A stretch of DNA of 64,000 nucleotides from Verrucomicrobium sp. BvORR106 (GTDB taxonomy: Bacteria > Verrucomicrobiota > Verrucomicrobiia > Verrucomicrobiales > Verrucomicrobiaceae): assembly GCF_000739655.1 (NCBI RefSeq), contig NZ_BATR01000094.1, positions 62,001 through 126,000 on the forward strand. The letters are read 5' to 3'. Each line of letters opens with the position of its first letter. The first letter of the stretch is position 1. A program made the position numbers and the translations under genes. This document shows, one piece after another, positions 17,611 to 38,814 of the stretch. Under the pieces are notes generated by a model. The model made no database searches. It was not told where the DNA came from and saw only the letters and a program-made list of their open reading frames with translations.

Positions 17611-18852
17611 GTGAAACTCCATCGTCACCTCATCGAACAGATCATTGCCACCATTGCGGAGATTTTCGCACGCGGGGTGCATGCCGACAAAGCCATCGAG
17701 CGGATGATGAAGGCGCACCCGAAGTGGGGCGCTCGGGATCGGCGATTCTTCGCGGAGACCTCCTACGAGCTCGTGCGCTGGTGGCGCTGGTACTGGTACC
17801 TCGCCGGGTTGCCGGATTCGGAGTACAACAAGGTGGAACTGCTCAACGATGGCAAGGTGTGGCGCGTGTGGGCGGCCTACTGGATGGTGCAGCATGGCGA
17901 GGCACCGCCCTTTGCGGAGTGTCGGGGCTCTTGGAATGCCACCGTCAAGTCCAGGTATGACGCGGACGTTCTGCCCGCCATCCGGCTTTCCATTCCCGAC
18001 TGGCTACAGGAGCGTGGGACCAAGGAGTTTGGCAGGGAGTGGCCAGAGCTGATGAAGGCGCTCAATGAGCCGGCGGATGTTTTCCTGCGGGCCAACACCC
18101 TGCGCATCACCCCTGTCGAGCTCCAGGCCCGGCTGGAGGGCGAGGGCGTGGAATCGCATCGCGTCAAGGGGTTGCCGGATGCGCTGCGATTGAGCGTGCG
18201 CAAGAACGTTTTTACCACCAAGGCGTTCCAGGACGGCCTGTTTGAAGTGCAGGATGCGGCTTCGCAGAAGATCGCTCCGTTTCTGGAAGTGGCTCCCGGG
18301 CAACGGGTAGTGGATGCCTGCGCCGGTGCTGGCGGCAAGACGCTGCACCTCGCGGCGCTCATGCAAAACAAAGGCTCCCTCGTGGCGATGGATGTGCACA
18401 AGTGGAAGCTGGATGAGATGCGCCGCCGGGCTCGTCGCAATGGTGTGAGCAATGTGGAGCCGCGCCTCATTGAGGATACCAAGGCTATCAAGCGTCTCGC
18501 AGACAAGGCTGACCGTGTGCTGCTGGACGTGCCATGCAGTGGTCTGGGGGTGATTCGTCGCAACCCTGATGCGAAGTGGAAGCTGAGTGAAGAAGAGCTG
18601 GACCGCCTCCAAAAACTTCAGCAGGAGATCTTGGAAAGCCACTGCCGCATGGTGAAGCCCGGCGGCAAGCTGGTATACGCAACGTGCAGCCTCTTTCCCA
18701 GCGAGAATGACCGGCAGGTGCAAACCTTCCTGGCCAGTCATGGGGAGGAATGGAAGCTGGAGGAGGAGCTGAGCCTCCGGCCGGATCGCGAGGGATATGA
18801 TGGATTCTATGCCGCGCGGTTGGTGAGGACGGCTACGGCTTCGCCGGGTTGA
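17611..18852 (+). CDS. RsmB/NOP2-type RNA (cytosine-5) methyltransferase
   Basis: The product (about 413 residues from the GTG at 17611) methylates cytosine C5 in RNA, most likely 16S rRNA. The SAM site is VDACAGAGGKTLHLAALM (about 233-250). The two catalytic cysteines lie in LLDVPCSGLG (Cys about 309) and YATCSLFPSEND (Cys about 357). The GTG start gives VKLHRHLIEQ, an all-helical start close to NusB-type or RsmB N-terminal modules; the longer frame runs through a region without conserved features. The stop codon lies in the first unit of the GTTGAG repeat array, giving the C-terminal SPG. Which rRNA base it modifies is not clear. Confidence 0.88.
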   Translation: MKLHRHLIEQIIATIAEIFARGVHADKAIERMMKAHPKWGARDRRFFAETSYELVRWWRWYWYLAGLPDSEYNKVELLNDGKVWRVWAAYWMVQHGEAPPFAECRGSWNATVKSRYDADVLPAIRLSIPDWLQERGTKEFGREWPELMKALNEPADVFLRANTLRITPVELQARLEGEGVESHRVKGLPDALRLSVRKNVFTTKAFQDGLFEVQDAASQKIAPFLEVAPGQRVVDACAGAGGKTLHLAALMQNKGSLVAMDVHKWKLDEMRRRARRNGVSNVEPRLIEDTKAIKRLADKADRVLLDVPCSGLGVIRRNPDAKWKLSEEELDRLQKLQQEILESHCRMVKPGGKLVYATCSLFPSENDRQVQTFLASHGEEWKLEEELSLRPDREGYDGFYAARLVRTATASPG

Positions 18853-18960
18853 GGCGGCCGCAAGCGGCCTGTTGAGACGCTGCGCTGGTTGAGACGGCTG
18901 CGCCTGGTTGAGGTGGCACAGCCGTCCCGGCTGTGAGTGGGACCGGCATCTTGCCGGTGG
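18848..18960 (+). repeat. GTTGAG hairpin-unit array plus one ACCGGCA palindrome
   Basis: Four units start with GTTGAG at 18848, 18871, 18888 and 18907 (periods 23, 17 and 19). Each is followed by a short GC-rich stem, such as GCGGCCGCAAGCGGCC or ACGCTGCGCTG. A matching array is at 54440-54506. The array is followed by ACAGCCGTCCCGGCTGT and ACCGGCATCTTGCCGGT. The first unit supplies the TGA stop of the methyltransferase gene. Confidence 0.8.
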
Positions 18961-19094
18961 GGCGCTCGTGGAGGTCGCTGATCTTATCCTCACACAAAGG
19001 CACGAAGATCTCAGAAGTAGCGCGGACTGGCAGTCTGCTGTGCCGCCGATTGGCAAGCGGCACCTTTCTCGCGTCGGTGGAAGTTCCAGATCGA

Positions 19095-23680: not shown

Positions 23681-23856
23681 GACACAAAAAAGTGTGATCA
23701 GGCATTTTACCATGCCAGATCACCCTGTGTCACGGGTCAACGCTGGGGATGACCCTCGGTTCAGGCCCTGAAAATTCGGGGCTGAATTCCACTATTCAAT
23801 TCGCCCAGCCGTTGGCCTTGGGCCGTTTGCCCACGCGCTGGGGGGCTGTCACGGTA

Positions 23857-26800
23857 CTATTGGGCGGCTGCGGCTGCCGCGGGCATCCAATTCGCTGCGG
23901 TGGGGTAGCCATAGTCAGTGAATTGTTTGAGGGCGGTTTCGGGTTGCAACTCGGCGAGTGCTTGCGCGGGACTGTCAAACACATCCAGCGGTCTGGGCAT
24001 GGCCAGATGGACCAGCGCAACGCTCTGGTTGGGCTGTAGGTTGAGATCATAGCGAATGAACAGACCGCGATTGCCTTCCAGGACGAGTTTTCCTTGAGCG
24101 GTGCCCAAAGAGGAACCCGTAGCGAGCAGCAAAGCTGGATGGTTGGCTCCCTTGAAGACTATGGCCACTTTCCCACCAGTCTTTGAGGCATCCACCGGAG
24201 TCGTGATGGTGATCGGTTGTCCGTCTGCTCGCAGGAGCGAGGCGATTTGATCGCTGGCAATCACCGCCAGATCCAGCCGGGTTTGGAGGGGCTGGTTCGT
24301 TTGATTGGTGAGCGTGTCGTGGACAACGTAGAGACCTTGCTCCTTGGACCACTGATGGCGACGGCGGATGGCAGTAGTGCCTGCGCGATCCGCAGCGTCG
24401 GAGTTGTAGCGCAGAGGAGACTGGCCGGGAGTTTCAATGTTGGTCTTTCCCATGATACCAACCGGGGCACCGTTCAGCCAGGGCACCAGGAATTGCTCGG
24501 CCCCCAACTCCGACTTCATGCCGTCGAACGGGTGCCCCAGGGTGCGCCATTTGAAGCCCAGAGCGTCGGGCATCATTCCATCGGGCGCGTAGGCCCCATT
24601 TGGCGGGAGCAAGCGTTGGAAGGCTTGTTGAGCGTCCTTTTCGACCGTCACATTCGCGAGAAAGGGAGTATGCAACCGGAATGCATTCAGGGCCGCGATG
24701 GAAGGTCTCCAAGAGGAGAGCGATTGATCCGCGGGCACGGTTGAGGCCTTTTTGCTGATATTGACGACGTGGCCGAAGGTCAGACGCTCGAAGGGGGCCA
24801 GTCGGAGATGCCATGTCGAGATCACTGCCCGAAGGTCGGTGTCCCAGCTGACGACGGGACGATGGGTGGCGGAGGGAGTGGCGAAGTTAGCCATGACCAC
24901 CCGTTGGGTTTCACCCTGCCGGATGGCGCAGGCTACAGCGTCAGCACCGAAGAAATCACCCGAAAACGGGGAGACTTGCATGCCGTTGTCGGTGGTTCTG
25001 GAAATAATGAGGTTCGCCGGAGAGCCGCCAAGCCTCGTAATGAAGCTAGCGGTGATCTCCACAGGATTGGCGTTGTTGTTCTCCAGCATGTCCCGCCAGT
25101 CGAAATTTCCATCGTTCCTGCTGGTGATGAATCGTCGCATGCGAAGTCCTGGAACGGGGCAGTCGAGATCCGAACCGGACAGAATCATGCTGCCGGAAGC
25201 GAAGTTCACTTTGGAGCTTTGGGTCTTGTGAACCAGAAGAGGAGATCGATTGATGATCCACTGACCTAGATGAAGTTTGGCATCGTCGCAGCGGTGGGTG
25301 CCGTCTGGTTCGATCACAAAGGTCTCTCCAGTTTTCAGAGTCAGCGGAGGTGGCGGCTGTCCCTCTGCCGTTCGCTGAGGAGAGCCCTTTTCAAAATTCA
25401 CGGAGCGAATTGGTTCAGGGGCGGTCGCAAGCTGAAATTCCGTCGGAGCCCCTTGTGCGGCCATGGCTGCGACGCTCCACAATGAGACGGAGCCGTCCGT
25501 AAAACCCACGGCCAGCCCCTTGCTGTCCGGGCTGAAGGTGGATGCATTCGGGTCGTTCTGGAGCGGTGGCGAAACGTACACAGGGTTGCCACTCTCCAAA
25601 TCGATCAGGCAGAGCTTGGTGCCGTCCTTGGGGGAGATGGATGACAGCAACCAGCGCCCATCTGGCGAAAACGATTTTGGCGACTGCCAACCGCTGGTCT
25701 TCGGCGGGAAGATCTCTTTCACCACGGCGAAGGTGTCGCCATCCACGATGGAGATGTGTTTCGTGTCGTGGACGGCAAGCTGGTTCTTTTGACCGGAGTA
25801 GCCAAAGATCTTGCCATCGACCTTGTTGGCCGACTGGCGGAAAGTGTCCTTGTCCAGATCATAGCCGTAAAACGTTCCGTCGTGCATGTAGAGCAATTCG
25901 TTGCGCAGGGAAGAGAAGAACGAAGCGTAAACGGGGTACGGTATGTCTCTGGGCAACTTAAGTCTCCTGACGACTTCGGGGCGGTCGGGGTGCCGGATGT
26001 CTGTGAATCTGGCATGAAAGCCCGTGGAGAAGAGGCACTGGCCGGTTTTTGGGTCCATGCGGACGCGGCGGAATCCCCTACGGAGATCCGGGTCCTCTGA
26101 TTCGAGTGCCCTCTTGAACAACAAAGTGCCGACGATGGGAGGAGAGGGGGGCGATGGGCTGCTGGCTGGGATCTGCCATTTCAGATGTTGGTTGACGTCT
26201 CCTCCGATCAGCGTCCTGCCATCCGGCATCCAGGCCATTTCTGTAGGAGAACTGGGCTCTGGGCTGACCAGGGTGTATTCCTGGGTGCCGTCGCTGGTGC
26301 GCCAGACGGCGACGCCAGTGGTGTCGGCTGTAACAAGCCGTTTTCCGTCTGGGCTAAAAGCCATGTGTTGAATGCGGTTGCGATGGCCGGGAGAACGGTC
26401 CGGCTCATGCTGCCAGGTTTCAGTATTCACCGCGACCAGGGGGTAGCAGGTGTTCCAGAAGCGCGGGCCTGACGGGGCGAAAGTCCCGCAGAGACATTCG
26501 GTCGTGGATTCATGCAGCACTTTGCGATCCGCCAGCCGGATCACCTTGTGCATGCCAATTCCTGATATCACCAACGTGCTCTCATCTGGGGAGAGGGTGA
26601 TGCGGTTGAAGCCGCGTCTTCCGCCACTGGCGGTGAGAGACCAGATGGACACCCTCTGATTGGGGTCGTGATTTACGGCACCTTCGAATTCCTTTGCGTA
26701 TTGCGTCCCTTGCCACTGAAAGACGATGTACCGCCCGTCGTCCCACAGCACCAGCCACCGGCCGCTGGCACTGAGGGTCAGCTTCCCTTCGGTCCAGTCC

Positions 26801-27567
26801 TCCTGTGGCTCACTGACAGGGGTGGGGGACCATTTTTCAGAACTGAAGCTGGTGATCCGGTGCTGGGGATCGAACGCCGGAGAAAGCAATACCTGCCGGG
26901 GGCCGAATGCCACCGCCTCATTAATGAGCACTCGTGGGGAGGTGGCCACCTGGGTTTGGGCGAGAACGGAGCCGGTCGTGGCATCAATCTTGGAGACGAG
27001 GACGGCGCCAGCAGAGTGTTCGGTGACGAGGGCCAGCGTTGCCGACTGGTCGGTAAAACCTTTCCAGCTGACGGTTGGGACACGTAGTGCCCAGAGTCCG
27101 CTGAGATCTGCCGTGTTGTTCATTCGTACCTCTGAGGTTCTCGCTTCTGTGGAGTATCCCAGAGTGAGAATTCGGCCGCCGTCAGGCGAAAGCGCCCAAC
27201 TGCCGGGGCCTGAGATCCTTCCAGTCCGCTGCAGTTCGCGGTTGTCCACGGAGGGTTGCCAGATATCGATATCTGATCCGGCAACGCTGCTGGCGAACAG
27301 TTTTGTGCCGTCCGGCATCCAAGCGGTCTGTTCGATCTCGTCCGATCTCTTCGTGGGATCACCCAGCCAGCGGATCAGTCCTGAAACAGTGGTTTGTGGG
27401 GGATCTACGACGAGAGCCGGGGGAGTGTCCGCCTTGGGGAAGGGGACTTCCAGTTCCTGCGAAGAGGCAGGACTGAGGGATGCCAAAGCGATGCAGAGAA
27501 TGCTGGAAGGGCCCGAAAACGCGAGGGCAATACGACGGAGAGAAAGTCGGGGGTAAGGTGGGGACAT
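23857..27567 (-). CDS. Large secreted WD40/beta-propeller protein, second sister copy
   Basis: The 1,236-residue product is the last gene of a three-gene operon after HtrA and its sister. Its start has a signal peptide (RIALAFSGPSSILCIALASLS, split around SQE). From about residue 60 to 680 it has repeated WD40-type blades: AWMPDGTKLFAS, ALSPDGGRILTLG, AFSPDGKRLVTAD and AWMPDGRTLIGG. The C-terminal third has no family I recognise, with FERLTFGHVVNI, PDALGFKWRTLGHPFDGMKS and ANHPALLLATGSS. The ATG at 27567 is favoured by an upstream AAAGGA; the frame itself extends to 27774. It is about 60% identical by eye to the gene at 27647-31348. Confidence 0.85.
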   Translation of the reverse strand: MSPPYPRLSLRRIALAFSGPSSILCIALASLSPASSQELEVPFPKADTPPALVVDPPQTTVSGLIRWLGDPTKRSDEIEQTAWMPDGTKLFASSVAGSDIDIWQPSVDNRELQRTGRISGPGSWALSPDGGRILTLGYSTEARTSEVRMNNTADLSGLWALRVPTVSWKGFTDQSATLALVTEHSAGAVLVSKIDATTGSVLAQTQVATSPRVLINEAVAFGPRQVLLSPAFDPQHRITSFSSEKWSPTPVSEPQEDWTEGKLTLSASGRWLVLWDDGRYIVFQWQGTQYAKEFEGAVNHDPNQRVSIWSLTASGGRRGFNRITLSPDESTLVISGIGMHKVIRLADRKVLHESTTECLCGTFAPSGPRFWNTCYPLVAVNTETWQHEPDRSPGHRNRIQHMAFSPDGKRLVTADTTGVAVWRTSDGTQEYTLVSPEPSSPTEMAWMPDGRTLIGGDVNQHLKWQIPASSPSPPSPPIVGTLLFKRALESEDPDLRRGFRRVRMDPKTGQCLFSTGFHARFTDIRHPDRPEVVRRLKLPRDIPYPVYASFFSSLRNELLYMHDGTFYGYDLDKDTFRQSANKVDGKIFGYSGQKNQLAVHDTKHISIVDGDTFAVVKEIFPPKTSGWQSPKSFSPDGRWLLSSISPKDGTKLCLIDLESGNPVYVSPPLQNDPNASTFSPDSKGLAVGFTDGSVSLWSVAAMAAQGAPTEFQLATAPEPIRSVNFEKGSPQRTAEGQPPPPLTLKTGETFVIEPDGTHRCDDAKLHLGQWIINRSPLLVHKTQSSKVNFASGSMILSGSDLDCPVPGLRMRRFITSRNDGNFDWRDMLENNNANPVEITASFITRLGGSPANLIISRTTDNGMQVSPFSGDFFGADAVACAIRQGETQRVVMANFATPSATHRPVVSWDTDLRAVISTWHLRLAPFERLTFGHVVNISKKASTVPADQSLSSWRPSIAALNAFRLHTPFLANVTVEKDAQQAFQRLLPPNGAYAPDGMMPDALGFKWRTLGHPFDGMKSELGAEQFLVPWLNGAPVGIMGKTNIETPGQSPLRYNSDAADRAGTTAIRRRHQWSKEQGLYVVHDTLTNQTNQPLQTRLDLAVIASDQIASLLRADGQPITITTPVDASKTGGKVAIVFKGANHPALLLATGSSLGTAQGKLVLEGNRGLFIRYDLNLQPNQSVALVHLAMPRPLDVFDSPAQALAELQPETALKQFTDYGYPTAANWMPAAAAAAQ

Positions 27568-27646
27568 GGGGGATTCCTTTTTCATTCGTGACTGTGCCCG
27601 ATGGGTTCCTGCTTTCTGGGGACTCGATGGGGTGCCAGTCATGAAT

Positions 27647-30600
27647 TTACTGGGCGGATGTATTGGTGCCTGGCGACCAGTTCGCCGCCGCAGGATAGCC
27701 GTATTCAGTAAACTGCTTGAGGGCGGGTTCGGGTTGCAACTCGGCGATGGCTTGAAGGGGGCTGTCGAAGGCATCTAGTGGCCTGGGCATCGCCATGTGA
27801 ACCAGAGCGACACTTTGGCTGGGTGCCAAGTCCAGATCGTAGCGAATGAACAAGCCGCGATTGCCTTCCAACACGAGCTTTCCCTGAGAAGTACCCGAGG
27901 GTGAACCTGCGGCCAGCAGCAAGGCCGGTTGGTTGGCTCCTTTGAAGATGACGGCCATTTTCCCGCCGATCTTGGAGACTTCGACTGGAGTCGAGATGTC
28001 AATCGGACGACCATCTGAAGCCAGGATGGATTGGATTTGATCACTGGCGATCACCGCCAGATCGATCCGGCTTTTAAAGGGTTTGTCTGTCAGATTCGTC
28101 ACGGTATCGTGGACAATGTATTGTCCCAGCTCTCTGGACCACGCGTAACGGCGGCGGATGCCTGTGGTGGCCGTGCGGTCCGTCGCTTCAACATTGAAGC
28201 GCGGGGGAATTATTCCTCGCGTTTCGAAGTTGGTTGTCGTCAACATGCCCACAGGCGCGCCGTTGAGCCATGGGACAAGGATCTGCTCTGCCCCCAGCTC
28301 GGAACTCATCCCATCGAAGGCATGCCCCAAGGCGCGCCATTTGAAACCAAGCGTGTCAGGCATTGTGCCATCCGGCGCATAAGGACCGTTCGGAGGAAGC
28401 ACCTTATCGAAGGTATCTTGGGAGCTCTCTTCCAGCGTTACGTTGGCAAAAAAGGGTAGATTGAACTGGAACGCACTCACTACGGCATCGGTGAGGTGCC
28501 AATTTCCAAGTGACTGGCTCGCTGGCTGTGTCGCGGCGGTTTTTGTCACGTTGACAATGTGTCCAAAAGTCCGACGCTCGAATGGAGCCAGCTGCAGGTG
28601 CCACGTTGAAACAACCGCCTGGAGACCGGCATCCCACTTCACGGCCGGGCGGAGTGGAGCCGAAGGGGTGGAGAGGCCGGCCAAAATGATCCGCTGAGAA
28701 TCCCCCTGCCGGACGGCGAAGGCGATGGCACTGGCATCAGTGAGAGTGCCGGAAGAGGGCAGCTTCTGCGTGTTCGAGGGGGACGTGGGGAGAATCAAGT
28801 CCTTCTCGGCGGCCCCCGGCTGAATCACGAATGACGCCGTGACCGTGACGGGTTTGGAGCTAATGTTTTCCAGGCTATCGCGCCAGTGGAACTGTCCTTG
28901 AGACCTGGCGACGAGCGTGCGGCGCATTCTCACGCCAGGAATGGAGCTATCCAAGTCCGAGTTTAAAGTAAGCTGGTTTCCAGCGGGAAAGTTGACCTTT
29001 TGGGTTCGGAACTTGTGCACCGTGGGAGTGGTGCCGTTGATCATCCACCGACCGAATTGAAGTTTGGCGGCATCGCAATCGATGGTGCCATTCGGATCAA
29101 TGATCATTTCCTCCCCGGTCTTCAAGGTCAGTGGAGGCGGCTGATCACCCTCAGACGATTTTTCCGTAGTTCCTTTTTCAACCCAGGAGACCCGGCCAGA
29201 TGCCGACGCTTGGGCGAGCTGGAAGTCCTGCGGCGCTCCTGCGGCGACCATGTCCCTGACACTCCAGAGCGAGGCGGTACCGTTGTTGAATCCGATTGCA
29301 ACCCCCTGACTGTCGGGACTAAAGCTCACGCTGGTTGGATATTCCTGCGGTGGTGAAACGTACACTGGCTTGCCGCTTTCGAGATCAACCAGGCAAAACG
29401 TGAAGCCGCGGGAGTTGTAGCTGGGCGTAAGTGTGGCAACCATCCAGCGACCATCCGGAGAGATGTCAGCCCCTTCACTCCAATGTCGGTTCACAGGAGG
29501 GAAGATCTCCTTGAGCACGGCGAAGGAGTCCCCATCAACGAGGGAGATGCGCTTGGCATCACGTACTGCCAGTTGGTTCTTTTGACGGGAGTATCCACAG
29601 ATGAATCCGTCCACCGTATGGGCAGATTTGCGCAGGGACTCTTTTTCCAGGTCGTAACCGTATATGACGCCGTCGGTGGCGTACAGCAGCTCGTTTCGGT
29701 TGGAGGAAAAGAATGAAGTATAAAAGGGGTAAGGGGCACCTTGGGGCAGTTTGAGCTCTCGAACCACGTTGGGGCGGTCTGGATGCCGGAAATCGGTGTA
29801 GTTGGCGTTCCGGCTGGCGGAGAAGAGGCAGAGGCCGGTCTTGGGGTCCATGCGAACCCGACGGATCCAGGAATAACGGAAGTCCTCCTGTGCTACCACC
29901 GAGTGCTTGAACAGGGGGGTGCCCTCGATATTGCGTGCGGGGCTAGTCGGCGGGCTTGGCGGGATCTGCCACTTCAGTTGCTGGATCTTGTCACCGCCAA
30001 CGAGAGTCTTGCCATCGGGCATCCACGCGAATTCGGTCATGGGGCCGTCCCCGGAACTGGTCAGCGTGTATTCCAATGTTCCGGAATGGGTGCGCCAGAC
30101 GGCTAGGCTCTCAGCGTCTCCGGTGACGATGCGACTACCATCCGGGCTGAACTCCAGGTGACGAAGACGCTCGCGATGCCCTGGTGTGCGGTCGGGGACG
30201 CGTTCCCAGTTTTGAGTGTTCACGGGGGTGAACGGGCGGCAGGAAGTCCAAAAGCGGTTGCCTGAGGGAGAGAACACGCCGCAAAGGCACTGAGTGGGAG
30301 ATTCATGCAGCACTTTGCGATCCGCCAGCCGGATCACCTTGTGCATGCCGACGCCGGAGACAATCAGGGTGCTTTCATCCGGCGATAGCGTGACGCGGTT
30401 GATTCCCCGTCTCGAACCATCGGAATTGAGTGATGAGATCGTGACGGGACTGTCGGGATCGTGATTGATTCCGCCGTCAAAAGCTTGATCGAAGCGGGCT
30501 CCATTCCATCGCATTACTACGTAGCGAGCGTCGTCCCAGACCACGAGCCAGTTGCCGCTTTTGGCGAGGACGAGCCTCCCTCTCGACCATCCGTCAAAAG

Positions 30601-31348
30601 GTTCAGTTATCGGAGTGGGGTTCCAGTTTTCCCCGGTGAAACGAGTGATCCGGAATTGAGCATCAAAGACTGGTGCCAGCAGCATTTGGTCCGGGCCAAA
30701 CGCAACCGCTTCATCGAATGCCCCTTCTTTGGGACTGGCAATGCGTGATTGGGACTTCAACATTCCCGTGGTGGCATCGAGCCTCGACAGATGAAGAACT
30801 TCGGGCGAGTAGCGCGTGATGAGGACCAGCGTTTGCGCATGATCCGTGAATCCCTTCCACCGGATGTTAGAGGCGCGCACCGCCCAAAGGTCAGAGAGGT
30901 CAGCAGTCTTGTTCATGCGCGCGGCAGCTCCGTCAGGGGAGACGGTAAACAAGCGGCTGCCATCCGGGGAAAGGCTCCAGGTGGTGACGCCGGTGAGCCT
31001 GCCGGTTCGCTCCAGTTCAGTGTCGTCGGCGCAATGCCGCCAGATGTCGAGACCGGGCCCGCCAGATCTGCTGGTGAAGAGCTTGGATCCATCCGGCATC
31101 CATTCCAGTTGGGTGATGTCACCGGATCGTTTGGTTGGGGAGCCCAACCACCGGACCAATCCTGGTGCGGAGACCTGGGGCGGGTCGACGACGACAGGAG
31201 GCGGGGAATCCACCTTCGGGAACGGCATCTCCACCTCCTGGGCGGGAGCGATGAGGAAGCCTGTCAGGGTGGCGCACAACACACCGCAGGAGCCTGACAG
31301 CATCCGGCGGAACCGGCGAAACGAAGCAGTGAGGAGGATGGGGGGCAT
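27647..31348 (-). CDS. Large secreted WD40/beta-propeller protein, first sister copy
   Basis: The 1,233-residue product starts 5 bases after the HtrA stop. Signal peptide: RRMLSGSCGVLCATLTGFLI then APAQ. Blade motifs recur: EWMPDGSKLFTS, SLSPDGSRLFTV, TLSPDESTLIVSG, EFSPDGSRIVTGD, AWMPDGKTLVGG and SFSPDSQGVAIGF. The C-terminal third is conserved with its sister (FGHIVNVTKTAA, PDTLGFKWRALGHAFDGMSS) but is otherwise unknown to me. The layout suggests an extracytoplasmic sensor or scaffold that binds a partner through the propeller. A 50-base stretch is identical between the two genes (26507-26556 and 30300-30349). Confidence 0.85.
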   Translation of the reverse strand: MPPILLTASFRRFRRMLSGSCGVLCATLTGFLIAPAQEVEMPFPKVDSPPPVVVDPPQVSAPGLVRWLGSPTKRSGDITQLEWMPDGSKLFTSRSGGPGLDIWRHCADDTELERTGRLTGVTTWSLSPDGSRLFTVSPDGAAARMNKTADLSDLWAVRASNIRWKGFTDHAQTLVLITRYSPEVLHLSRLDATTGMLKSQSRIASPKEGAFDEAVAFGPDQMLLAPVFDAQFRITRFTGENWNPTPITEPFDGWSRGRLVLAKSGNWLVVWDDARYVVMRWNGARFDQAFDGGINHDPDSPVTISSLNSDGSRRGINRVTLSPDESTLIVSGVGMHKVIRLADRKVLHESPTQCLCGVFSPSGNRFWTSCRPFTPVNTQNWERVPDRTPGHRERLRHLEFSPDGSRIVTGDAESLAVWRTHSGTLEYTLTSSGDGPMTEFAWMPDGKTLVGGDKIQQLKWQIPPSPPTSPARNIEGTPLFKHSVVAQEDFRYSWIRRVRMDPKTGLCLFSASRNANYTDFRHPDRPNVVRELKLPQGAPYPFYTSFFSSNRNELLYATDGVIYGYDLEKESLRKSAHTVDGFICGYSRQKNQLAVRDAKRISLVDGDSFAVLKEIFPPVNRHWSEGADISPDGRWMVATLTPSYNSRGFTFCLVDLESGKPVYVSPPQEYPTSVSFSPDSQGVAIGFNNGTASLWSVRDMVAAGAPQDFQLAQASASGRVSWVEKGTTEKSSEGDQPPPLTLKTGEEMIIDPNGTIDCDAAKLQFGRWMINGTTPTVHKFRTQKVNFPAGNQLTLNSDLDSSIPGVRMRRTLVARSQGQFHWRDSLENISSKPVTVTASFVIQPGAAEKDLILPTSPSNTQKLPSSGTLTDASAIAFAVRQGDSQRIILAGLSTPSAPLRPAVKWDAGLQAVVSTWHLQLAPFERRTFGHIVNVTKTAATQPASQSLGNWHLTDAVVSAFQFNLPFFANVTLEESSQDTFDKVLPPNGPYAPDGTMPDTLGFKWRALGHAFDGMSSELGAEQILVPWLNGAPVGMLTTTNFETRGIIPPRFNVEATDRTATTGIRRRYAWSRELGQYIVHDTVTNLTDKPFKSRIDLAVIASDQIQSILASDGRPIDISTPVEVSKIGGKMAVIFKGANQPALLLAAGSPSGTSQGKLVLEGNRGLFIRYDLDLAPSQSVALVHMAMPRPLDAFDSPLQAIAELQPEPALKQFTEYGYPAAANWSPGTNTSAQ

Positions 31349-31353
31349 GAGAG

Positions 31354-32814
31354 TTATTTCCTTTTGATCATGGCGAACCCTGCTCCTGACTTTTTCCAGA
31401 GCTTGAGCATGAGCGGAGTTTCGGGGGGCAGCTTTTTCAATGCCTCATCGAGTGTCCGGCAGTCGCTGATGTTGGTTCCGTTCAGAGTAGTGATCACGTC
31501 ACCCGGAGTGACCTTGGCAAAGGGGCGGCCGTCCTCGTCGGCTTTGGTGATCAGGACACCTTTGATGTCCACGGGGATCTGTTGCGTGGCGCGGGTGATG
31601 TGGTCGATGTCGACCCCTTCGAGCCCGGCACGGAGGGTAAGGCGCGTCTCAGAGGCAGGCGCAGACGGTGCTGACTTCGCCGGAGTCGGAGATTCCACCA
31701 GTGTGCATTCGAGAGAGAGTTTCTTTCCCTCACGCAATACGTCGAACGTGGCTTTGCTCCCGGGGGGCAGGGCCGCCACTGCGAAGCGCAGCCTCGCCGT
31801 GGTCGGAAGGTTTGCTCCGTTGAACCCGGTGATGATGTCTCCATACGCAAAGCCTGCCGTGTCGGCGGGGGACGATGCCACGATCTCTATCACCTTTGCC
31901 AAGCGGTGCTCGTTGCGAAGCGAGAAGGCTGCGGTCTCTTGCGGTTCCGTGTCCACCCAACGAAGCCCCACAAAACCTCGAACCACATGACCACGCGTCT
32001 GCAGATCATTGGCAACCCTCAATGCGAGGTTGGCTGGGACTGCGAATCCGATGCTGTTGGCAGGTCGCCAGCCGCCACCCGGATATGCGGCCGTGTTGAT
32101 CCCCACCAGTCGCCCCAGGCCGTCTACCAGAGCTCCGCCGCTGTTTCCAGGATTGATGGGGGCGTCGGTCTGAATGAAGTCTTCATAGCCGCCTTTGATG
32201 AAGTTCATCGTGCGGCTGGTGGCGCTGACGATGCCGAGCGTGACGGTCTGTTCCAATCCGAAAGGACTCCCCAGTGCCAGGACGACATCGCCACGCTGGA
32301 GGGTGGAACTGTCCGACACCGACATGGGGTGCAAGTCGAACGCGGCGATTTTCAGCAGCGCGATGTCAGTTAGGGGATCCCGGCCAATGAGAGTGGCTTC
32401 CAAGTCCTGCTGACTTTCCGCCAGACGGACATGCAGCGTGTCTGCATCCTCCACGACATGATTGTTCGTGATGATGTGGCCTTCCTTTGTGAGGATGACC
32501 CCTGATCCGCTGCCCCGTTTTGCCTCCAGCATTCGGGGCTCCTTTTTGCCGGTACCAAGGTCCAGGCTTCCGGAGGAGGGCTCGATTTGCCCCCCTGGAT
32601 CTTCATATTTCACTGCTAGTACGGTGACGACGCTGGGCAGGCACTTCCGTACTGTGGCGGCGTAGCTCAGGGTCACCGCCCCGGAGTTTTCAAGAGGGGC
32701 CGGATCTTTTCCGATCAGGGAATCCAGGCTGACGGTCGGCGTAGCATCTGCCCATGCAGATACCGTAGCGACCGTGCCCAGAAAAAACAGGGGGAGTTTT
32801 TTCGGCAATGGCAT
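31354..32814 (-). CDS. HtrA/DegP-type serine protease with two PDZ domains
   Basis: The 486-residue product is exported (signal KLPLFFLGTVATVSAWA). The chymotrypsin-fold domain has a full triad: His119 in TNNHV, Asp150 in LTDIALL and Ser225 in NPGNSGGALV. PDZ1 lies about 275-365 and PDZ2 about 395-480 (GLEGVDIDHITRATQQI, TPGDVITTLNG). Such proteases degrade or refold damaged periplasmic proteins. Here the gene leads an operon with two giant propeller proteins, so it may process or be controlled by them. A long hairpin lies 47-80 bases upstream of its start. Confidence 0.95.
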   Translation of the reverse strand: MPLPKKLPLFFLGTVATVSAWADATPTVSLDSLIGKDPAPLENSGAVTLSYAATVRKCLPSVVTVLAVKYEDPGGQIEPSSGSLDLGTGKKEPRMLEAKRGSGSGVILTKEGHIITNNHVVEDADTLHVRLAESQQDLEATLIGRDPLTDIALLKIAAFDLHPMSVSDSSTLQRGDVVLALGSPFGLEQTVTLGIVSATSRTMNFIKGGYEDFIQTDAPINPGNSGGALVDGLGRLVGINTAAYPGGGWRPANSIGFAVPANLALRVANDLQTRGHVVRGFVGLRWVDTEPQETAAFSLRNEHRLAKVIEIVASSPADTAGFAYGDIITGFNGANLPTTARLRFAVAALPPGSKATFDVLREGKKLSLECTLVESPTPAKSAPSAPASETRLTLRAGLEGVDIDHITRATQQIPVDIKGVLITKADEDGRPFAKVTPGDVITTLNGTNISDCRTLDEALKKLPPETPLMLKLWKKSGAGFAMIKRK

Positions 32815-32860: not shown

Positions 32861-32894
32861 CCCTATGGAGGTGAAGATTTTCGCCTCCATAGGG
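32861..32894. promoter_or_regulatory. Long inverted repeat just upstream of the HtrA/propeller operon
   Basis: CCCTATGGAGGTGAA (32861-32875), loop GATT, TTCGCCTCCATAGGG (32880-32894). The stem is 15 pairs with one G-T wobble. It lies 14 bases after the esterase stop and 47 bases before the HtrA start, both on the minus strand. No T run follows on either strand, so it is not a classical terminator; operator or transcript-leader hairpin are both possible. Confidence 0.65.
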
Positions 32895-32907
32895 AATCAA
32901 AAACATC

Positions 32908-33801
32908 TCAATTCGCCCAGCTGTTGGCCTTGAGCCACTCGCCCACGCGCTGAGGCCATTCGTTCACGGGATTGGGGCCTTTTTTCATCCCATAGCCGTG
33001 GCCGCCTTTGCTGAAGATGTGGAGTTCAGCGCTGAGGTTGGCCTTCTTGTACTCAAGGTAGAGCAGAGCGCTGCCTGCTGGCGTGATCTTGTCGTCATGG
33101 GCATGAATGAGGCAGATGGGGGGAGCCGTGGGGCCGACCTTGAACTCGGGCTTGAGCTGGAAGTCGTTTCCTTTCTCCGTGAGGTAGGCCGGATAAACGG
33201 GGATGGAAAAGGCCGGGGTGGCATCGGCCACGTCCAGAGCGGGATCCTGCGGGTAGGTGCGGTCGTTCGGGTGCAGGGTGGCGTTCACACACAGATGCCC
33301 GCCGGCAGAGAAGCCGAGGATGCCGATCTTGTCGGGCTTGATGCCCCACTCCGCAGCGTGTTTCTGCGCCAGACCAAAGGCGCGTTGGGCGTCCTGAAGG
33401 GGTTCTTTGCCTGGATCGGACTCGTCGCGCTTGGGCACACGATACTTGAGAAGAATGCCGGTGACACCGAGGGTGTTGAGGTACTCACACACCTGGGAGC
33501 CCTCGTGTTCGATGGCCAGGATGCTGTAGCCGCCGCCAGGGCAGACGATCACCGCCGTGCCGTTGGGCTTCTCCGGGCGGTACACGGTGATGGTGGGGTC
33601 GGTGACGTTGGTCACGCGTTTCACATCGGACTCGTTCTTCGGCGGGATTTCCTTCTCGGCATCCATTTTGAAGCCGGGTTTCTCAGGGGCTCCTTGGGGC
33701 CAGAGCTTGAGGACAACGGGCTGATCTGCGGCTACGGCAGAGCTGAAGCCGACGGCAAGCGCGGCCGCCACAGGGAGGATGCGGTGGGAGATGTAGGTCA
33801 T
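32908..33801 (-). CDS. Secreted alpha/beta hydrolase, BD-FAE/xylanase-associated esterase-like
   Basis: The 297-residue product has a signal peptide (RILPVAAALAVGFSSAVAA). It carries the oxyanion loop VIVCPGGGYSILA, the nucleophile elbow GFSAGG (about 162-167), IHAHDDKITP with the acid, and the terminal His in GGHGYG. This matches the BD-FAE-type esterases that remove acetyl or feruloyl groups from hemicellulose. The longer open frame upstream is dismissed since the ATG at 33801 begins the signal. The neighbour at 33942 runs divergently with a shared 140-base spacer. Confidence 0.88.
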   Translation of the reverse strand: MTYISHRILPVAAALAVGFSSAVAADQPVVLKLWPQGAPEKPGFKMDAEKEIPPKNESDVKRVTNVTDPTITVYRPEKPNGTAVIVCPGGGYSILAIEHEGSQVCEYLNTLGVTGILLKYRVPKRDESDPGKEPLQDAQRAFGLAQKHAAEWGIKPDKIGILGFSAGGHLCVNATLHPNDRTYPQDPALDVADATPAFSIPVYPAYLTEKGNDFQLKPEFKVGPTAPPICLIHAHDDKITPAGSALLYLEYKKANLSAELHIFSKGGHGYGMKKGPNPVNEWPQRVGEWLKANSWAN

Positions 33802-38311: not shown

Positions 38312-38814
38312 GGATGGAATGAACTAGGGGGTTATTGGCTGAAGACGTGGGATGGTGGGCCATCCCCTGTCACCGCGAAATGCCGATGTCGGCGAGGTTG
38401 CGAGTGCCCGCAGTTCGAGAGCAGCGTGCAGGCATGGGTATGCACTGGCGCACGCGTCTCCGTCGTTGCTTCGGTGTACTCGCAGCCACGAGGGCTGGGT
38501 GACAGTATTTGCGGGCTTATTTCCCGCAGATGAGGTGCACTTGAATTCGCGACGAATAAGAGGATCAGGAAGCGAAGTTGCTCCTGCGTCGCGCTGTGTT
38601 TCCTACGGCACTTGTGTCATAGGTTTGTATCTTAGCCGTAGTGTATTCTTGGTCAAGAATAATGCGATTTCACCCTGACCGATTGTGCGCAAGTGCCTGT
38701 AGATGGGGCGGTTGGCGGTGGTGGGGCGGCTGCGCCGGAGCGGAGACAAAAGACTGGAAGACGAAGAACAGAAGACCTGAGATGCTAGGGGAGGTGCTTT
38801 CATGAACAACTCGC
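38312..38814. other. Gene-poor spacer with a 41-base dispersed repeat
   Basis: No open frame in this stretch looks coding. It contains the second copy of the 41-base repeat (38741-38781, CGGAGACAAAAGACTGGAAG at its start), with a GC-rich hairpin-like GGCGGCTGCGCC just before. The promoter for the minus-strand lipoprotein gene must lie near 38320-38400, and that of the HEAT-like gene near 38780. Confidence 0.55.

Follow-up and report, generated by a model that had tools for sequence, protein, structure and literature searches.

An htrA gene kept beside genes for giant propeller proteins in the Verrucomicrobiaceae

In the 64,000-nucleotide stretch of DNA analysed here (the window), a gene for an HtrA-type serine protease is followed by two genes for giant proteins with a propeller region. 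The htrA gene and a giant gene are adjacent and co-oriented in nine of nine genomes from three genera, the window genome included. Judged from these sequences, the pairing is not a matter of chance and the two genes have been kept together over long evolutionary time. The favoured reading, to which we give a probability of about 45%, sees in the block the genes for a dedicated exported protease/chaperone and for a large binding partner that would be its client. The first-pass annotation could name no described system of this make-up, and none was found in the open-access literature. Taken singly, the parts belong to known kinds; as far as we found, that literature describes neither their combination nor the dedicated HtrA clade nor the family of tandem modules.

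Gene content and conservation of the locus

The three open reading frames lie on the minus strand in the order htrA, giant 1, giant 2, with the lengths and spacings first assigned to them. The htrA gene (31354-32814) encodes 486 aa, giant 1 (27647-31348) 1,233 aa and giant 2 (23857-27567) 1,236 aa. A gap of 5 bp separates htrA from giant 1, and one of 79 bp separates giant 1 from giant 2, given a giant 2 start at 27567. The mechanically called frame of giant 2 extends upstream to 27774, into giant 1, which makes it an unlikely reading; translation probably starts at the ATG at 27567, as this lines up with the giant 1 start. The two giants have the same architecture and are 57.6% identical across 1,230 aligned codons (57% in the propeller part, 52% in the first C-terminal module and 71% in the second). 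Third-position changes are the commonest between them, so both genes look maintained. Giant 1 carries a probable signal peptide, the signal peptides of the locus proteins having been assessed by eye only.

Of 67 other family genomes searched, eight (G002, G008, G016, G021, G025, G033, G040 and G058) encode a full-length giant. In all eight, htrA lies directly upstream on the same strand, at most tens of bases away. The neighbourhood that the first-pass annotation had proposed to look for in relatives therefore held for every other full-length giant of the family, and the opposite outcome, that the genes would be neighbours in no relative, is contradicted. What is conserved is htrA with a giant; the twin is not, since giants are doubled only in the window and every other pair locus holds one, nor was the neighbourhood seen more widely in the phylum, full-length giants having been found in the family only. 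When all open reading frames around the loci were compared, htrA and the giant were the only content common to every locus. Over the pairs, identity to the window proteins is 31-47% for HtrA and 18-29% for the giant. The topology of the giant tree is compatible with that of the HtrA tree, and pairwise HtrA and giant distances are correlated (r = 0.93, Mantel 0 of 2,000), a correlation that includes shared species history.

By sequence comparison, the twin arose by local duplication, giant 2 being a tandem duplicate of giant 1. A third giant of the window genome lies on another contig (C85, L039:7246-10923) with no htrA beside it; in BLAST comparisons it is 27-29% identical to the window's two giants.

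No full-length giant was found outside the family in class and phylum samples of 384 and 388 genomes, with few candidates scored per genome, and the giants are likely confined to the family on this sampling. Because the class scan with a full-length profile gave many WD40 cross-matches and few candidates were scored per genome, the C-terminal profile was used. A contig scan with a single giant protein as query gave no match, a wide alignment was too diverged for use, and a narrow alignment recovered one true relative, on a Prosthecobacter MAG contig, and one match limited to the propeller region. A split giant was also seen (G058; Prosthecobacter MAG contig, L097:8001-11737), with frames of 163 and 1,069 aa that reflect either an assembly or draft error or a real frameshift. 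By eye, the giant of two Prosthecobacter-type genomes (L043, L044) is followed by a small cupin-like gene, with Suf and Fur-like genes close by.

The protease and the giants

The operon HtrA had been described as an HtrA protease with a full triad and two PDZ domains. Pfam agrees, with Trypsin_2 at E 3e-30 and PDZ_2 in two stretches. The triad H119/D150/S225 is invariant across nine of nine operon HtrAs, and the best PDB matches are DegP/DegQ-like proteins. The protein scores below the curated cut-off of TIGR02037, the narrower Do subfamily model of NCBIfam (334.3 against 416.2 bits); by its domain content it is nevertheless an HtrA-type protease of Do/DegP type, though not filed under that model. 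It shares the trypsin-like domain, intact triad and two PDZ domains with the HtrA/DegP/DegQ (Do) proteases, and differs from them in forming a separate clade within the bacterial family that is tied to a giant partner gene.

HtrA proteases are usually regarded as general quality-control enzymes, and HtrA genes are present in every genome of the family. In a tree of 37 family HtrAs, the nine pair HtrAs fall on one side of a single branch with support of 100/99, and the 28 others lie elsewhere. Long branches occur among the pair HtrAs, and the program warns of long-branch joins; the group was recovered in 100% of 200 bootstrap trees. No giant was seen beside non-pair HtrAs at the sampled loci, and no pair-clade HtrA without a giant in the sampled relatives. 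From the tree, the pair HtrAs are a dedicated lineage apart from the housekeeping HtrAs. Many of the non-pair HtrA loci adjoin a gene pair that resembles, by eye, a two-component system.

In the giants, Pfam recognises only WD40/PD40 repeats, all in the first ~720 residues; WD40 (PF00400) scores 51.7 and 37.9 bits against a cut-off of 27. The propeller region of giant 1 covers about residues 60-720, a length that would fit about 14 blades. A whole-protein model of giant 1 from three sequences reached a pLDDT of 42.6 and was not used.

The C-terminal third had been taken for a part of no known family that is well conserved between the sisters. Its conservation stands, and no match was found in Pfam, NCBIfam or a PDB sequence search; the idea of one unknown domain does not hold. 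The third consists of a ~210-aa module duplicated in tandem, the two halves aligning over 202 columns with 98.6% probability (E 6e-16). In giant 1, module 1 comprises residues 738-950 (28499-29137, minus strand; iE 4.9e-60 to the module profile) and module 2 residues 993-1201 (27746-28372, minus strand). Module 2 was modelled over positions 27704-28381 from a shallow alignment of six repeat copies, with moderate confidence (pLDDT 69.5, pTM 0.69). Foldseek placed this model with the supersandwich (galactose-mutarotase-like) fold at E 4e-6, and VIA-align 2 gave Z scores of 12-14 to supersandwich folds, the maximum being 13.8 over 189 of 226 residues with an rmsd of 3.2. The structural matches were N-terminal domains of phosphorylases, aldose epimerases and the periplasmic domain of YidC. 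Profile and structure comparison of the C-terminal thirds, as the first-pass annotation had suggested, thus led to a known fold, and to a fold only, with no role attached.

The module is therefore predicted, with moderate confidence, to adopt a supersandwich-type fold, a likeness that reveals no function. It resembles the supersandwich domains of GH94/GH65 phosphorylases, aldose epimerases and YidC in predicted fold over ~190 residues; unlike these, the giant modules stand in tandem behind a propeller region and have no detectable sequence kinship to PDB chains. The module defines a family that has no Pfam model and recurs in further proteins of these bacteria that also look exported. It was seen singly in proteins of ~640-1,900 residues in the class (L086-L096), often encoded by two such genes in tandem. 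Some of these lie near MoxR/DUF58-like genes by eye, and one protein has F5/8-type C domains.

Possible roles of the pair

In the favoured reading, the giant would be secreted and probably non-enzymatic, with a propeller region and two supersandwich modules that would suit the binding of extracytoplasmic glycans or proteins. The most likely task of HtrA would be to act on the giant, or together with it, and to oversee how the giant is folded, trimmed or turned over once exported; in the window genome one HtrA would serve two giants. We infer physical contact, action of HtrA on the giant, an extracytoplasmic location and a binding role of the giant. The reading is supported by the adjacency in all nine genomes, the dedicated HtrA clade, the matching trees, the kept triad and the absence of the block as a unit from two genus mates. 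The giant is preferred as a client because it evolves fast, is duplicated beside a single HtrA and exists as an orphan, none of which is decisive. A fixed 1:1 complex also accounts less well than a protease with its partner or client for the single HtrA with two giants and for the orphan on C85.

Nevertheless, several points weaken the reading. Co-inheritance shows no contact, the distance correlation is partly species history, and the orphan giant lives apart from htrA, where it may be served in trans. PDZ domains usually bind hydrophobic tails, and no common hydrophobic C-terminal tail of the PDZ-ligand type was found in the giants; the whole-protein model, with a pLDDT of 43, offers no help. 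That a distinct HtrA lineage has been passed on together with one giant exported partner suggests a dedication of some HtrAs to a single client or adaptor. Being small and discrete, and missing by nature from close relatives, the pair lends itself to direct tests by gene removal.

Sensing, scaffolding and substrate delivery are possible roles of the system. Two known cases can be set beside it: tricorn is one chain with an S41-type peptidase, and BamB is a much smaller lipoprotein that is not an htrA neighbour. As in tricorn, propellers, PDZ and protease occur together; here they are divided between two genes, the protease is of the S1 (trypsin) type, and Pfam gave no tricorn or S41 match. As with BamB beside DegP, an exported beta-propeller and a DegP-type protease would share a compartment. 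With about three times the length of BamB, the giants combine a WD40-type region with two supersandwich modules; no BamB model was among their Pfam/NCBIfam matches, and by eye the lipobox is absent at the expected place.

Both cases bear on a possible, though doubtful, alternative in which the giant would be a regulator of HtrA and not a client, binding a ligand or misfolded envelope proteins and delivering them to the protease or gating it. Tricorn, covered in a survey of PDZ proteins, combines a propeller and a PDZ protease in one chain (PMC6411480), and degP and bamB interact genetically in E. coli, the double mutant showing no growth at 37 C (PMC3306311). The dedicated HtrA clade and the co-inheritance point the same way. 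On the other hand, sequence change is much faster in the giant than in HtrA (18-29% against 31-47% identity), unlike what a conserved regulatory interface would show, one giant is found without an HtrA, and the tricorn and BamB models are unmatched. A more elaborate proposal, which we consider unlikely, is a two-gene exported proteolytic machine in which the giant would dock on the HtrA oligomer and select or gate substrates. Such a machine would be tricorn-like but independently evolved, and the two giants would provide two specificities.

Borders and flanks of the block

The htrA-giant-giant block is bordered by a 45-bp direct repeat whose copies (23796-23840 on the left and 32908-32952 on the right) are 89% identical; the right copy is the 3' end of the adjoining esterase gene. 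The intergenic gap that separates the esterase gene from htrA contains a perfect 11-bp inverted repeat with a 12-bp loop, CCCTATGGAGG-N12-CCTCCATAGGG (32861-32894), which is the sole copy in the genome with up to 3 mismatches allowed. It may be a terminator, an operator or neither. GC content is 0.589 in the block against 0.604 in the rest of the window, and third-position GC is 0.68 against 0.72-0.78 in the two flanking genes. A foreign origin of the block was considered on composition and set aside, the slight difference in GC not being decisive.

Two genus mates (G001 and G012) cleanly lack the block: their syntenic flanks, at 84-86% identity, meet within ~90 bp or less, against 9.1 kb in the window. 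In G002, from another genus, esterases lie upstream of the pair with two open reading frames between, and a sulfatase 74.6% identical to that of the window lies directly downstream. This shared gene order speaks for an old arrangement that later disappeared from the genus mates, perhaps when the 45-bp repeats recombined; an insertion is the less favoured possibility.

The same flanks suggest that the giants might be glycan-binding accessory proteins of a polysaccharide-degradation cluster, with HtrA merely a nearby helper. The pair sits between a carbohydrate-type esterase and a sulfatase in both the window and G002, and the supersandwich fold is common among carbohydrate enzymes. This explanation is nevertheless improbable, as the sulfatase is absent from the other seven loci, the genus mates retain sulfatase and esterase without the pair, and neither a glycosidase nor a SusC/D-like gene was identified beside the pair. 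Adjacency among related genomes can be passively inherited, and the genes might be operon neighbours with no functional link; we regard this as quite improbable, since the pairing persists in three genera and down to 18% giant identity with every other neighbour exchanged, and both genes are jointly absent from the genus mates. That the pair is a defence or conflict system combining a protease with WD40 is highly improbable: PADLOC matched the protease domain weakly to defence proteins that bear a protease, over the trypsin fold alone, the giants have no PADLOC match, the proteins appear exported, and protease-bearing systems such as AVAST were rejected on domain content, Pfam finding no NTPase domain, and hence no NTPase/STAND core, in the giants.

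Short stretches belonging to dispersed intergenic repeat families were also observed in the window, at ~18847-18912, 19017-19062 and 38742-38781, with dozens of near copies in the genomes of both genus mates.
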